Shown here one piece after another: positions 1,914 through 56,105 of a stretch of DNA of 64,000 nucleotides (positions within the stretch are counted from its first letter, which is position 1; each line of letters opens with the position of its first letter). A program made the translations under genes and the position numbers. The DNA is taken from the NCBI RefSeq assembly GCF_015558785.1, contig NZ_JADMOP010000013.1, positions 1 through 64,000 of the forward strand, in the 5' to 3' direction. The DNA comes from Collinsella aerofaciens (GTDB lineage Bacteria > Actinomycetota > Coriobacteriia > Coriobacteriales > Coriobacteriaceae). The notes beneath the pieces are model-generated. The model was given only the letters and a program-made list of their open reading frames with translations. It made no database searches and was not told the DNA's origin.

Positions 1914-3077
1914 ATGTCGGACAATATTGAGCAGCCGTTGCCGTCCACGTTTGAGGAGTTCAACGAGCAACGCAAGGCGGCGTTTATTCGCGTCAAGGAT
2001 TATAAGCAGGCGGGTAATCGCCTGGTCGGTTTTCTGTGCAGCTACACGCCGCTCGAGATTATCGATGCCGCGGGGGCTGCGAGCGTGGCGCTGTGCGGCA
2101 CGTCCGACGAGGTGATTCCCGAGGCCGAGAAGGTGCTGCCGGCAAACCTGTGCCCGCTCATCAAGTCTACGTATGGTTTTGCCTATTCGCAAAAGTGCCC
2201 GTTTACGTACTTTAGCGACATGATCATCGGTGAGACCACCTGCGACGGCAAGAAGAAGATGTACGAGCTGCTCAACGAGCTCAAGCGCACGCACATTCTG
2301 CATCTTCCGCAGGGCCGCGATCGAGCCTACGAGCGCGAGGGCTGGTACGAGGAGTGCCGTCTGCTCAAGGAGGAGCTCGAGAACTTCTACGGCATCACGA
2401 TTACCGACGATGATCTGCGCGCTGCCGTCCGTCGTCGCAACCGCTTGCGTGCGGCCCAGCTCGAGATGTTTGCGCTGCAGGCCAACCAGCCGGCGGCCAT
2501 GAGCGGCGTCGACCTGATGAGCACCATGTTTGCCGGTACGTTTAGCTTTGATATCGAGGCCTATACGCAGCAGCTGGAGCAAAAGGTTGTCAAGCTGCGC
2601 GAGGCCTACGACGCGAGCGAGCGCCCGGTTGCGGCGGATGCCAAGCGCATTCTGATCACCGGCTGCCCGGTGGGCGGCGTGATCAACAAGATCGGTCGCA
2701 CCATCGAGTCCAACGGTGGTGTGGTCGTGTGCATGGACGACTGCTCGGGCGAGCGCACGGCGGCCATGATGATCGACCCGGAGGCTCCCGACATCTTGCG
2801 CGCCATCGCCGACCGCTACCTGGACATTAACTGCTCGGTCATGACGCCCAACGACGGTCGTATGGAAAACACGCTGGCCATGTGCGAGAAGTATCACGTC
2901 GATGGCGTAGTGGAGAGCGTGCTCCAGGCGTGCCACACCTTTAACGTGGAGAGTGCGCGCATGCAGGAGACTGTCGAGGGTGCGGGCATTCCGTACATGA
3001 AGATCGAGACCGACTACAGCAACGGCGACATGGGACAGATCGAGACCCGCATCGCCGCCTTCATCGAAACCCTCTAG
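1914..3077 (+). CDS. Double-cubane-cluster / 2-hydroxyacyl-CoA dehydratase family protein (copy 2)
   Basis: This 387-residue paralogue of the preceding gene has the usual YjiM/DCCP length. The family motif [11 protein letters not shown] includes Cys110; the other matching cysteines are Cys80, Cys277 and Cys340, in the same order as in copy 1. The ATG at 1914 has a clear AAGGAG ribosome site, and an upstream in-frame extension overlapping copy 1 is a shadow. It probably forms a reductase powered by the activase at 3233. It may be a homodimer (as DCCP is) or pair with copy 1 (as in HgdA/HgdB heterodimers); the sequence does not decide. Substrate unknown. Confidence 0.87.
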
Positions 3078-3078
3078 C

Positions 3079-3175
3079 TTCCTCAGGCACCGGATCTTGC
3101 TCCTCAAACCGTCGCTTGCGTACCCAATGTACGCTGCGCTCCTCTTTCGGGTCAATCTCCGGCACCTGAGAAACC
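3079..3175 (+). repeat. Structured intergenic element E, copy 2
   Basis: Outer arms CTCAGG-CA-CCGG (3082-3093) and CCGG-CA-CCTGAG (3159-3170) pair around a two-base internal loop. A perfect inner hairpin GCGTAC/GTACGC lies at 3118-3134. It is homologous to the element at 1775-1876 and again lies just after a dehydratase-like gene and before the next gene of the operon. Confidence 0.6.
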
Positions 3176-32731: not shown

Positions 32732-32828
32732 GGGAACGGATGGGCTCCGGTGGGCTCCGCGGTCCTCAAAACCGTTGCGAGGCGTGCAAAACGTCTTGGA
32801 TGTGTTCGATTCACATACGTTCCCGCCA
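32732..32828 (+). tRNA. selC: tRNA-Sec (UCA)
   Basis: This RNA is 97 bases with encoded CCA. The acceptor GGGAACG pairs with CGTTCCC, and an eighth G/A pair is non-canonical. The D stem has six pairs (GGGCTC with GGGCTC, two G-U) around a 4-base CGGT loop. The anticodon loop is CCTCAAA, giving UCA, with C instead of U at position 33. The long variable arm is GAGGCGT/ACGTCTT. The T arm is ATGTG-TTCGATT-CACAT. The discriminator is G. The long D stem and variable arm are diagnostic of selC. Confidence 0.93.
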
Positions 32829-34050: not shown

Positions 34051-34081
34051 CACCACAAAGGTGCCTGTCCCCAATGTGGTG
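34051..34081 (+). repeat. Hairpin with GGTGCCTGTCCCC centre
   Basis: CACCACA (34051-34057) pairs with TGTGGTG (34075-34081) around AAGGTGCCTGTCCCCAA. Sequences of this type (GTGCCTGTCCCC flanked by complementary ends) are dispersed in many bacterial genomes. The rest of 34041-34297 holds no gene and forms the gdhA leader. Confidence 0.5.
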
Positions 34082-51681: not shown

Positions 51682-53136
51682 CTAGCGCACCCCCTTCAGC
51701 GGTCCCTCGACCAGCCAGGATCCGGCATCCTCCAACAGCACTTCGCTGGGGTCGCAGCCCAGCTCGCGGGCAAGGATCGCCACCACGCGGCTCTGGCAAA
51801 AGCCACTCTGACACCGACCCATGCCGGCACGACAGCGGCGCTTGACGCCTTCGACCGAAACCGCACCCGGGCGGCGTCGGATCGCGGCCACGATCTCGGC
51901 CTCGGGTACCGTCTCGCAGCGGCAGACAATCTGCCCCCACGCGGGGTCGGACTCAATGAGCTCTTCCTTGCGCACAAGCGGGGCGCGGTCAAAGTCATCC
52001 GGCGCGCGGCGTATCGGGTCCCAATCGTTCCGTTCGCGCAGGACCACGCCGGCATCGCGCAGCACCTGCTCCATGCGCTCGGCAATGGCTGGCGCGCTCG
52101 CCACACCCGGCGACTGAATGCCCGCCGCCTGAAACAGCCCCGGCACCACGGCCGACTGCCCAATAAAGAAGTCGTTAGTCCCCTGAATGACCGGACGCCC
52201 GCCGGCAAACGCGCGCACCACGCGGCGCGTGTCCAGATCGGGAACCAGCTTGCGCGCGCCCGTCAGCAGCGCGTTCACATCGCTTGCATAGGTCTGCGTG
52301 TCGCCTGGCTCGCGCACAGCGGCGGTCGCGGTAATCACGGTGTTGCCGTGGACCGTGCCCGTGACGATAACGCCCTTGGAAACCGGCGTGGGCACGGGGT
52401 AGAGCGGCATGAGCGCGCGCGGCTCCTTGTCCAGTACCACAATGTTTCCCTGGCGCCAGACCATCTGGAACTCCTCGGCGCCGGTCACATGCGAGATGTC
52501 CGCGGCGCCGTTGCCCGCGGCGTTGATCAGGTAGCGGCAGCGCACGTTGCCAGCGGGGGTCGCCAGCGTAAAGTGCGCGTTGTCGCCCGAGCCCGCGACT
52601 TCAATTGCTTCCACCGACGCGGACCGCATAAACGTCACCCCGTTGGCCACGGCGTTCTCCAACGCGGCGATGGCAACCTCAAACGGGTCGACAAACCCAG
52701 TCGAGGGGCACCACAACGCGCACGTTGCATCGGCACTGGCGCGCGGCTCTAATTCGTGGATGCGATCGGGTCCGATGATCGACAGCTCGGGCACACCGTT
52801 GACATGACCGTTGCACCGCAGCTTTTCCAGTTGCGCGCGGTCCTCATCGTTAAATCCCAGCACCATCGACCCGGTGCGGCAGAACAGAAAGCCCAGCTCC
52901 TGCGCCCACTTACCGTACAACTCGCAGCCACGGGCGTTGACCTGCGCCTTAACCGTGCCCGGTGCCGGATCGTAACCGGCGTGCACCAGGCCGCCGTTGG
53001 CCTTCGACGCGCCCAGCGCAATATCGTTAGCCGCCTCGACCACGCAAATGGACAGGTCAAACCGCGCGAGCTGCCGTGCGATGGCGCATCCGGTGATGCC
53101 CGCGCCGACAATCGCGATATCAAACGTTTCTGCCAC
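51682..53136 (-). CDS. GlpA-like FAD-dependent dehydrogenase with BFD-type [2Fe-2S] domain
   Basis: This 484-residue protein begins with FAD motif IAIVGAGITGCAIARQLAR. The DAO fold (1-360) contains GALSKANGG-like ALGASKANGGLVHAG. The C-terminal domain has IVCRCETV and CRAGMGRCQSGFC, a BFD-like [2Fe-2S] site. It resembles anaerobic glycerol-3-phosphate dehydrogenase subunit A or an L-2-hydroxyglutarate dehydrogenase-like enzyme; substrate not certain. It uses a GTG start (53136) behind GGAGG. A palindrome at 53154-53168 may regulate the operon. Confidence 0.87.
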   Translation of the reverse strand: MAETFDIAIVGAGITGCAIARQLARFDLSICVVEAANDIALGASKANGGLVHAGYDPAPGTVKAQVNARGCELYGKWAQELGFLFCRTGSMVLGFNDEDRAQLEKLRCNGHVNGVPELSIIGPDRIHELEPRASADATCALWCPSTGFVDPFEVAIAALENAVANGVTFMRSASVEAIEVAGSGDNAHFTLATPAGNVRCRYLINAAGNGAADISHVTGAEEFQMVWRQGNIVVLDKEPRALMPLYPVPTPVSKGVIVTGTVHGNTVITATAAVREPGDTQTYASDVNALLTGARKLVPDLDTRRVVRAFAGGRPVIQGTNDFFIGQSAVVPGLFQAAGIQSPGVASAPAIAERMEQVLRDAGVVLRERNDWDPIRRAPDDFDRAPLVRKEELIESDPAWGQIVCRCETVPEAEIVAAIRRRPGAVSVEGVKRRCRAGMGRCQSGFCQSRVVAILARELGCDPSEVLLEDAGSWLVEGPLKGVR

Positions 53137-53305: not shown

Positions 53306-53603
53306 GTCTCAATCTGTAACATCTGGGACTGTTTTTGCCGAGTTACTGTTACAGATTGAGACATTCGGTGCGGACGGCTTTCTTTGTCTCAATCTGTAAC
53401 AGTTAGCTGATGATTTGGGTTCTAGATGTTACAGATCAAGACGAACCTTCCGGCGGATTTTGGATGTCTCGATCTGTAACAGTTAGACGAGGATTTGGGT
53501 CCCAGATGTTACAGATTGAGACGTTAGTCTGACTGGTAATCCGTTCGTCTCGATCTGTAACATCTAGACCCGGTTTCCGCTTCCACCTGTTACAGATTGA
53601 GAT
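53306..53603. repeat. Four-unit array of palindromes, 80-bp period (family B)
   Basis: Units are 53306-53362, 53386-53442, 53466-53522 and 53547-53603, each exactly 57 bases. Each has 16-base arms (GTCTCAATCTGTAACA and complement) and a 25-base centre. Spacers are 23, 23 and 24 bases. The centres of units 2 and 3 resemble each other; units 1 and 4 resemble them in reverse orientation. It occupies the gap between divergent genes (53137-53702). No Cas genes are nearby, and the spacing is unlike CRISPR. Confidence 0.9.
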
Positions 53604-53667: not shown

Positions 53668-53702
53668 TGACCGGACTGTTAATATTCCGAAAGGTACCCG
53701 TA

Positions 53703-54134
53703 ATGTCCAAGTACATCTCCGAGCTCATGTCGCCGCAGCTTATGGGCGTCGTCTATGCCTTCGTTGGTTTTATCATCGCCCTGTATGTGCTGTCGGTCGT
53801 CTATGTGTTCATCGACGCTCGCCGCCGCGGTGCCAGCGCCTACGTGGCATGGGGCATCATCGCCCTCATCCCGTTTGTAGGCCTCATTGCCTACCTGGTC
53901 CTGCGCCCGCACTCTTACGCGTCCGACCGCGAGGAGCAGGAGTTGGACATGGCCCTGCGCGAGCGCCAGCTTGCGCAGTACGGCACCTGCCCGCAGTGCG
54001 GCGCGCCCATCGAGAAGGACTTCGTCGTCTGCCCGGTGTGCGATACCCAGGTTCGCAATGTCTGCCCCAGCTGCCATCGCCCGCTCGATGCGCACTGGAA
54101 GGTCTGCCCGTACTGCCGAACTCGCATTCAGTAA
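53703..54134 (+). CDS. Membrane protein with PLDc_N-like segment and double zinc ribbon
   Basis: This 143-residue protein has two membrane segments (about 12-37 and 48-66), resembling the small PLD-nuclease N-terminal domain found in bacterial membrane proteins. The soluble C-terminal half has CPQCG and CPVC, then CPSC and CPYC, a double zinc ribbon. ATG 53703 is behind GAAAGG. Function is unknown; it may sense or scaffold at the membrane. It stands between the repeat array and thrS. Confidence 0.75.
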   Translation: MSKYISELMSPQLMGVVYAFVGFIIALYVLSVVYVFIDARRRGASAYVAWGIIALIPFVGLIAYLVLRPHSYASDREEQELDMALRERQLAQYGTCPQCGAPIEKDFVVCPVCDTQVRNVCPSCHRPLDAHWKVCPYCRTRIQ

Positions 54135-54341: not shown

Positions 54342-56105
54342 ATGAAGGCACTCTACAATGACGGTTCGGTGGCCGAGCTCCCGCAGGACGAGGTCACGCA
54401 CGTCATCCGCCACTCCGCCGCGCACATCATGGCGCAGGCCATCAAGCGCCTCTATCCCGAGGCCGACTTTGCCTACGGCCCCGCAACCGACAACGGCTTT
54501 TACTACGACGTCGACCTGCCCGAGGGCGTCAAGATCAGCGAGGACGACTTCCCCGCGATCGAGGCCGAGATGAAGAAGATCGTCAAGGAGAACCTCAAGT
54601 TCTCCGTGTACGAGAAGCCCCGCGCCGAGGCCATCGCCCTTATGGAGGAACGCGGCGAGAAGTACAAGGTCGAGCACATCGGCGACCTGGACGATGACGC
54701 CCGCATCACCTTCTACCAGCAGGGCGACTACATCGACATGTGCGTCGGCCCCCACATCTGCTACACCAAGGCGCTGAAGGCCTTTAAGCTCACCGGCGTC
54801 TCGGGCGCTTACTGGAAGGGCGACAAGGACAACAAGATGCTCACCCGCATCAACGGTGTCGCCTTTGCCACCAAGGAAGAGCTCGACGAACACATGCACA
54901 TGCTGGAGGAGGCCAAGAAGCGCGACCACCGCAAGATCGGCCGCGAGATGGACCTCTTTATGATGCGCGACGAGGCCCCCGGCTTCCCGTTCTTCCTGCC
55001 CAACGGCATGATCCTTAAGAACACGCTGCTGGACTACTGGCGCGAGATCCACCACAAGGCCGGCTACGTGGAGATCTCCACGCCGCTCATCATGAACAAG
55101 CAGCTGTGGAAGACCTCGGGCCACTGGGACCACTACAAGGACAACATGTACTCCACCGTCATCGACGACGAAGAGTACTGCATTAAGCCCATGAACTGCC
55201 CGGGTGGCGTGCTGGTGTATGCCTCCAAGCCGCACTCCTATCGCGAGCTGCCCATCCGCGCCGGCGAGATTGGTCTGGTGCACCGTCACGAGCTGCGTGG
55301 CGCCCTGCACGGCCTGTTCCGCGTGCGCTGCTTTAACCAGGACGACGCCCACCTGTTTGTGCGTCCCGACCAGCTGACCGACGAGATCGTGGGCGTGGTC
55401 AACCTCATCGACTCCGTGTACCAGAAGTTTGGCTTTAAGTACCACGTCGAGCTTTCCACCCGCCCCGAGGACTCTATGGGCTCCGACGAGGATTGGGCGC
55501 GCGCCGAGGAGGGCCTGCGCACTGCTCTGGAGAAGCTGGGCATGGACTACGAGGTCAACGAGGGCGACGGCGCCTTCTACGGCCCCAAGATCGACTTCCA
55601 CCTGGAGGACTCGCTCGGCCGCACTTGGCAGTGCGGTACCGTCCAGCTCGACTTCCAGATGCCGCTCAACTTTGATCTGGAGTACGTGGACGCCGACGGC
55701 ACCAAGAAGCGCCCCATCATGCTGCATCGCGTGTGCTTTGGCTCCATCGAGCGCTTCATCGGCATTCTGATTGAGCATTTTGCGGGCAAGTTCCCCACTT
55801 GGTTGGCCCCCGTGCAGGTCAAGGCACTTCCGGTTTCCGAGAAGAGCCGCGATTACGCCCACGAGGTGTGCGCCAAGCTGGAGGAGGCCGGCATCCGCGT
55901 GGTCTGCGACGACCGCGACGAGAAGATCGGCTACAAGATCCGCGAGGCCCGCTCCATTGACCGCGTGCCCTACATGCTCATTCTGGGCGAGAAGGAGGTC
56001 GAGGCCGGCAACATCTCCGTCCGCGATCGCTCCAACGAGACCGTTCAGATGAGCGTTGACGAGTTTGTTGCCAAGGTGACCGAGGAGATCAAGACCCGCG
56101 CCTAA
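54342..56105 (+). CDS. thrS: Threonyl-tRNA synthetase, TGS-less form
   Basis: This 587-residue class II synthetase starts almost directly at the editing domain (HSAAHIMAQAIKRLYP near residue 28; later a CVGPH loop). The catalytic core has zinc-ligand KPMNCPGG and motif 2 HRHELRGALHGLFRVR. The anticodon domain ends the protein. It is about 55 residues shorter than E. coli ThrS, having only a short remnant of the N-terminal TGS domain. ATG 54342 has GAGGAG upstream. Confidence 0.96.
   Translation: MKALYNDGSVAELPQDEVTHVIRHSAAHIMAQAIKRLYPEADFAYGPATDNGFYYDVDLPEGVKISEDDFPAIEAEMKKIVKENLKFSVYEKPRAEAIALMEERGEKYKVEHIGDLDDDARITFYQQGDYIDMCVGPHICYTKALKAFKLTGVSGAYWKGDKDNKMLTRINGVAFATKEELDEHMHMLEEAKKRDHRKIGREMDLFMMRDEAPGFPFFLPNGMILKNTLLDYWREIHHKAGYVEISTPLIMNKQLWKTSGHWDHYKDNMYSTVIDDEEYCIKPMNCPGGVLVYASKPHSYRELPIRAGEIGLVHRHELRGALHGLFRVRCFNQDDAHLFVRPDQLTDEIVGVVNLIDSVYQKFGFKYHVELSTRPEDSMGSDEDWARAEEGLRTALEKLGMDYEVNEGDGAFYGPKIDFHLEDSLGRTWQCGTVQLDFQMPLNFDLEYVDADGTKKRPIMLHRVCFGSIERFIGILIEHFAGKFPTWLAPVQVKALPVSEKSRDYAHEVCAKLEEAGIRVVCDDRDEKIGYKIREARSIDRVPYMLILGEKEVEAGNISVRDRSNETVQMSVDEFVAKVTEEIKTRA

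Follow-up and report, generated by a model that had tools for sequence, protein, structure and literature searches.

A regular intergenic array of inverted repeats in Collinsella aerofaciens as a probable member of a clade-specific family of recombination junctions

Collinsella aerofaciens is a common human gut species. A 64,000-nucleotide stretch of DNA from this species, here called the window, contains between two divergent genes a block of short inverted repeats with a strikingly uniform period, and the question that this locus raises is what such an array is and what it does. The block (53306-53603) is composed of four units, each consisting of a 16-nt arm, a 25-nt centre and the inverted 16-nt arm, and it separates the gene of an FAD-dependent oxidoreductase from that of a small Cys-rich protein upstream of threonyl-tRNA synthetase:

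51682..53136, minus strand: left neighbour gene (context, outside the array), FAD-dependent oxidoreductase with a BFD-like [2Fe-2S] domain (DAO + Fer2_BFD)
53306..53362, no strand: Unit 1; arm 53306-53321, exact; centre TCTGGGACTGTTTTTGCCGAGTTAC; inverted arm 53347-53362, exact
53363..53385, no strand: Spacer 1, 23 nt
53386..53442, no strand: Unit 2; arm 53386-53401; centre GTTAGCTGATGATTTGGGTTCTAGA; inverted arm 53427-53442, which reads TGTTACAGATCAAGAC
53443..53465, no strand: Spacer 2, 23 nt
53466..53522, no strand: Unit 3; arm 53466-53481; centre GTTAGACGAGGATTTGGGTCCCAGA; inverted arm 53507-53522
53523..53546, no strand: Spacer 3, 24 nt
53547..53603, no strand: Unit 4; arm 53547-53562; centre TCTAGACCCGGTTTCCGCTTCCACC; inverted arm 53588-53603
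53702..54134, plus strand: right neighbour gene (context, outside the array), small protein with a hydrophobic N-terminus and a Cys-rich tail
54342-56105, plus strand: threonyl-tRNA synthetase gene, after the small Cys-rich gene

The small Cys-rich protein (53702..54134) has no Pfam match. Elsewhere in the window, positions 32732-32828 are a tRNA-Sec gene.

The layout given by the initial annotation, four 57-nt units with 25-nt centres and spacers of 23, 23 and 24 nt, is correct to the base. Its count of eight arm copies is slightly loose, since GTCTCAATCTGTAACA is exact in four of the eight arms, has one mismatch in three and two mismatches in one. The suggestion that units 1 and 4 are flipped versions of units 2 and 3 holds weakly at best: the centres of 1 and flipped 3, and of 4 and flipped 2, agree at 14 of 25 positions, against a background mean of 10.7, but centres 3 and 4 reach the same 14/25 in both orientations, and centres 1 and 4 are at background with 11/25.

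The window array is one of many. At up to two mismatches, the arm 16-mer occurs 99 times in the genome of the window and a reversed control pattern not once, which is far beyond chance and identifies a dispersed family of about 19 arrays of one to six units each. C. aerofaciens and its close relatives have approximately 15-20 intergenic array spots per genome. Among 45 genomes of the genus Collinsella, 24 are array-rich, with 24-63 units each, and the remaining 21 carry zero or one; a single unit is found in two of these array-poor genomes, and a looser pattern adds one unit in a third (G017; G-numbers are labels of compared genomes, L-numbers of compared loci or records). The other matches among 397 genomes of the order come singly or in pairs, look like chance and are comparable to the control. 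Among the matches listed by a GTDB scan, every record is Collinsella, mostly C. aerofaciens. The sole match in plasmid records is a C. aerofaciens replicon deposited as a plasmid, the whole-array query had no match in phage records, and of the matches to viral contigs, L163 is a Collinsella prophage contig beside an array and L164 a chance match. The array family is confined to the Collinsella aerofaciens clade, and a literature search found no published description of the arm motif or of Collinsella repeats of this kind.

The geometry of the family was established from 256 arrays with 501 distinct units. The centre is 25 nt long in 674 of 685 units, so that the fixed centre length noticed in the window is a true constraint of the whole family, and spacers are 23 nt (254 cases), 24 nt (164), 22 nt (10) or 21 nt (1). 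Random arm spacing in relatives, which the initial annotation had named as grounds for rejecting a structured array, was not what tabulation revealed: regular arms and spacing recur instead. Each half-site follows the consensus WWY-RTCTCRATCTGTAACA-NN-TAG; beyond the TAG the sequence is free until the middle of the centre, which is A/T. When oriented by its short A/T tract, which lies on one strand, the centre is asymmetric, with G/C-rich sides, and the orientation of the tract is mixed along arrays. The arms evolve more slowly than the centres and the intergenic flank, with 0.062 changes per site compared with 0.166 in matched centres and 0.104 in the adjacent right intergenic flank. A solitary half-unit, consisting of an arm and a centre with the second arm absent, is conserved at one locus in four genomes, and in the annotated record NZ_OY725717.1 it lies less than 200 bp from an IS200/IS605 tnpA gene:

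L020, 11058: solitary half-unit
L196, 23700: solitary half-unit
L237, 19059: solitary half-unit
L252, 10247: solitary half-unit

The arrays are intergenic and indifferent to gene orientation. Statements about orientation rest on the annotated record NZ_OY725717.1, since the strands given by an ORF caller are unreliable in this GC-rich genome. There, 13 of 13 arrays lie between protein genes, of which five pairs are convergent, three divergent and five tandem. At the window locus the array is kept in 23 array-rich genomes with one to eight units, and seven array-poor genomes have none. The differences at this locus are whole 80-nt steps between units that are common by descent, and Unit 4 is the unit that adjoins the right flank in most relatives. 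Of the earlier idea of a tandemly amplified small mobile palindrome, the whole-unit steps bear out the amplification, not a mobility of the unit. In G000, two near-identical three-unit arrays lie 1.95 kb apart upstream of a clpB-like gene (L010 4330-4547 and 6281-6498), a place that holds two different arrays in G001 and one in G002. At another locus (L033) the 25-nt centre of one unit is the exact reverse complement of the centre that relatives with the same neighbours possess (L084 and L146); this is the single instance observed of a centre being inverted between its arms.

What happens at the arrays is most apparent when G001 and G002 are compared in 20-kb blocks. In one case the outer flanks of two G002 arrays, 27 kb apart, meet at a single G001 array; in G000 the same two arrays are separated by about 3.5 kb. 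A second G001 array unites flanks between which G002 has 1.1 kb; here the left unit is whole and the right flank starts just after the last arm, which places the crossover in the arm. Conversely, the two sides of a 5-kb block of the lactose PTS region in G001 are brought together at a G002 array. The fused arrays retain both outer flanks intact to the array edge, and no inversion between arrays was seen in the G001 and G002 blocks. At one position, two arrays of G001 enclose 7.2 kb with Fic, PTS and GntR genes, G002 has a single unit, and G000 has a block that encodes a DUF2326 protein together with a C5 methyltransferase and an EcoRII-type endonuclease. Two other arrays are directly adjoined by a GmrSD-type gene and an Fe-alcohol dehydrogenase gene. 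Islands of defence-type and sugar-uptake genes are found between or beside arrays.

The association was quantified by comparing all loci through 400-bp flanks and scoring a break where the neighbour on the other side was missing in the other genome. Counts were pooled over related strains, so the comparisons are not independent, and the loci were chosen for carrying an array; with these limits, the neighbour is lost in 39.3% of the array comparisons, compared with 16.9% for the remaining intergenic gaps of the same loci and 6.7% for random points. Any break at all was found at 144 of 175 arrays, 44 of 128 intergenic gaps and 50 of 242 random points (arrays versus intergenic gaps, Fisher p ~2e-17). 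In 872 of the 986 broken comparisons (88%), the junction of the second genome carries an array as well. It could be that arrays accumulate where rearrangement is tolerated. From the compared genomes, the arrays appear to be recombination junctions where blocks of genes are swapped, gained and lost.

The arms of the window's array have also served a mobile element. The orthologous array is split in G003, G025 and G005 by an element of 4.3-4.5 kb that encodes an XRE-type regulator, a RhuM-family or DUF3800 gene and a tyrosine integrase, the latter with a PF00589 match just below the Pfam cut-off and interrupted by stops in G005. In G025 the integrase is encoded at C1:1715527-1716564. In G003 and G025 the junctions read TGTTACAG|element and element...AGTGGCAG|ATCAAGAC, and in G005 TGTGGCAG|element and element...AGTGGCAG|ATTTAGAT, which puts both insertions mid-arm, in separate units; that of the 4.3-kb element in G003 and G025 corresponds to window position 53434/53435 in the inverted arm of Unit 2. 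Two independent insertions are thereby shown to have used the middle of an arm of the window's array as an attachment site. The element integrase is present in five of 24 array-rich genomes and at a different site in two of them, and it therefore cannot maintain the family. The arms are used by the element integrase and yet are unexplained by it. A related integrase, in G001, G007 and the L163 prophage, has the site TGTGGCARTATTAAGAT, about 70 bp from the place of another array in relatives. On the L163 prophage contig (IMGVR_UViG_2857861838) the tyrosine integrase is encoded at 1162-2289, and the attachment site is not in an arm but some 70 bp beyond the array, which lies at a GDSL-hydrolase gene. 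The RhuM-family (L308 2494-3492) and DUF3800 (L310 3038-3874) cargo of the arm-inserted elements matches the PADLOC candidate defence models PDC-S05 and PDC-M04A.

Array-poor genomes offer a view of how units may be carried. The clpB gene, named from its translation, has a single unit preceding it in G039, where the clpB region is 89% identical to that of the array clade; in G017 the unit is beside a 270-bp clpB-region fragment of 92% identity, far from the native clpB (83%), and other array-poor genomes have 73-84% identity over the clpB region. The single units of G017 and G039 thus lie at the edge of what is, by its identity, array-clade-like DNA. The unit of G038 precedes clade-like DNA with a tRNA-Met-like gene, recognised by eye. 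Empty sites exist as well. Upstream of a release factor 3-like gene, identified from its translated start, an array is present in G000, G001 and G008 and absent from five relatives, and there is no obvious target duplication. At two further sites the array, where present, has a REP on each side (REP-array-REP), and where it is absent a lone REP (AAACCACCACAAAGGGGACAGGCACCTTTGTGGTGGTTT, in either orientation) is left. Recombination between REPs would produce this pattern, and such recombination between AAACCACCACAAAGGGGACAGGCACCTTTGTGGTGGTTT copies explains two array losses or gains. This second dispersed palindromic repeat may point either way at a given site, depending on the genome, and its copies can flank arrays; just three of them are closer than 500 bp to an array of G000. 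A further dispersed repeat of about 97 nt, with approximately 75-91% identity between copies, occurs many times per genome. Regarding a MITE-like origin, no gene-carrying element with arms as its ends was found among the G000 arm matches.

Window 34051-34071: REP AAACCACCACAAAGGGGACAGGCACCTTTGTGGTGGTTT
L245, 8950-9200: REP AAACCACCACAAAGGGGACAGGCACCTTTGTGGTGGTTT
L258, 9700-10100: REP AAACCACCACAAAGGGGACAGGCACCTTTGTGGTGGTTT
Window 3077-3175 and 1777-1872: the ~97-nt repeat
L258, 8919-9016: the ~97-nt repeat

The symmetry of the units invites explanations at the level of RNA or of known palindromic repeats. The initial annotation proposed a series of RNA hairpins, which would make the array a structured RNA, a small RNA or a set of bidirectional terminators. 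Each strand indeed folds very stably (z about -13 and -15), as any inverted repeat would; the low folding energies come from the inverted repeats themselves and are uninformative. Arm-arm agreement at variable positions, observed and expected, is 0.463 and 0.526 at position 0, 0.695 and 0.698 at position 4 and 0.511 and 0.495 at position 5, so that agreement is at or below the level of independent draws and the arms show no covariation. Hairpin pairing is consequently not what is conserved, and the arms behave as independent recognition sites. Rfam yielded no match above gathering score, only sub-threshold microRNA matches, and a promoter and terminator scan found no U-tract terminator within the window array. 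Together with the lack of orientation bias relative to genes, this disfavours the hairpin proposal, which we regard as very improbable. A BIME/REPIN-type element copied by a RAYT (REP-associated tyrosine transposase) is hardly more credible, even though the regular alternation of orientation is the textbook BIME look (PMC2817692) and the Collinsella repeats are likewise regularly spaced, extragenic, variable in unit number and clade-specific. REPs are imperfect palindromes with compensatory changes and have a cognate RAYT (PMC2817692, PMC3116915), whereas the Collinsella arm is not self-palindromic and lacks compensatory changes, and no RAYT was found as its cognate. Y1_Tnp genes exist in all 24 array-rich genomes but also in 15 of 21 array-poor genomes, and the single Y1_Tnp gene of G000, the genome in which flanks were looked at, is on a contig without arrays and has no arm within the surrounding 4-kb stretch. 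This distribution and the non-palindromic arm argue against BIME membership despite the alternating layout. The array shares with CRISPR its regular short repeats and variable segments of equal length, and the earlier judgement that it is not a normal CRISPR is upheld: the repeats alternate in orientation, there is no phage match, no cas annotation is found beside the 13 arrays of NZ_OY725717.1, the centres are common by descent, being inherited across species rather than newly acquired, and a genome has about 15-20 small arrays.

A closer parallel is found in Neisseria. Neisserial intergenic mosaic elements (NIMEs) with dRS3 repeats are intergenic arrays credited with promoting recombination and exchange at adjacent loci, and dRS3 also serves as the integration site for a mobile element (PMC3898611, PMC9778887). 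The dRS3 repeat is a 20-bp palindrome, ATTCCC(N8)GGGAAT, and the RS segments are 30-160 bp long (PMC3898611). The Collinsella arrays resemble them in being intergenic, in having short inverted repeats around variable segments, in an arm that is the integration site for an element integrase in two independent insertions, and in their link to rearrangement and exchange of adjacent genes. They differ in the arm, whose consensus RTCTCRATCTGTAACA is 16 nt and not self-palindromic, with no dRS3, in segments fixed at 25 and 23/24 nt, and in phylum, with no sequence relation seen. Since repeat sequence and segment lengths differ, the array is outside the NIME class, and we see in the Collinsella arrays, by analogy, a functional counterpart of the Neisseria NIME/dRS3 system that is new and unusually regular.

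We therefore regard the window array as probably a copy of a clade-specific family of intergenic mosaic repeats that act as recombination junctions in a NIME/dRS3-like manner; the role in exchange is supported by the genome comparison. The building block would be a putative recognition site of about 20-23 bp, made of RTCTCRATCTGTAACA with A/T-rich sequence just outside and TAG two bases inside, and these putative sites alternate in orientation at a rigid pitch of 41 and 39-40 bp. Genome comparison indicates that arrays grow and shrink by whole units and persist for long at the same locus, and that they apparently recombine with each other, with loss, gain or replacement of the DNA that two arrays enclose or that adjoins a single one. 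Most exchange may be homologous recombination in which the arms supply the shared sequence, either between arrays of one chromosome or between an array and incoming DNA, and occasional events may be site-specific and due to arm-using integrases. A sequence-specific protein that binds the arms in pairs may keep the spacing fixed.

The preferred reading has to be weighed against three others. Attachment sites of tyrosine recombinases include phage att, integron attC and shufflon sites, and the arrays may be landing pads of such sites that drive cassette exchange across the clade through element-borne or resident recombinases. The arm with its inner TAG would then be a core attachment site with two binding elements around an 8-nt crossover region, CTGTAACA. 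The mid-arm insertion of a tyrosine-integrase element on two independent occasions is a likeness to these sites, but the related recombinase gene was not found in most array-rich genomes (five of 24 have it) and a centre is inverted between the arms of a unit in one case only, and we consider landing pads unlikely. A protein-binding array is possible for the window's repeat. Here a dimer or filament of a nucleoid or regulatory protein would bind the arms at the 41/39-40 bp pitch, the role would be chromosome organisation or insulation of transcription, and recombination would be a side effect of the repeats. Conserved arms separated by centres and spacers that are free in sequence and fixed in length, the A/T tract on one strand of the centre between G/C-rich sides, the absence of arm covariation and the stable loci all agree with such an array, which we rate as a tenable explanation a little short of even. 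It accounts poorly for arrays that favour neither a particular gene orientation nor a gene function, a binding protein was not found, and the range of one to eight units at one locus with absence from otherwise conserved sites suggests no locus-specific dose requirement. The arrays may lastly be neutral debris in permissive intergenic regions, with rearrangement caused by IS, the second REP family and tRNA genes. Some arrays do lie beside REP copies, two empty sites are explained by REP-REP recombination and one array is beside a tRNA-Met gene. We find this rather doubtful, as breaks exceed those at the intergenic controls of the same loci, fused arrays have both outer flanks intact as far as the array edge, and REP copies are so few near the G000 arrays.

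The extreme length constraint on free sequence raises the testable question of what reads the 41/39-40 bp pitch. If the arrays are indeed the joints for exchange of restriction-modification, GmrSD, Fic and sugar-transport blocks, the entry points of accessory genes would be predictable, and the arrays would provide markers for strain typing and fixed sites for genome engineering. They would also represent a second, independently evolved NIME-type solution outside Neisseria.
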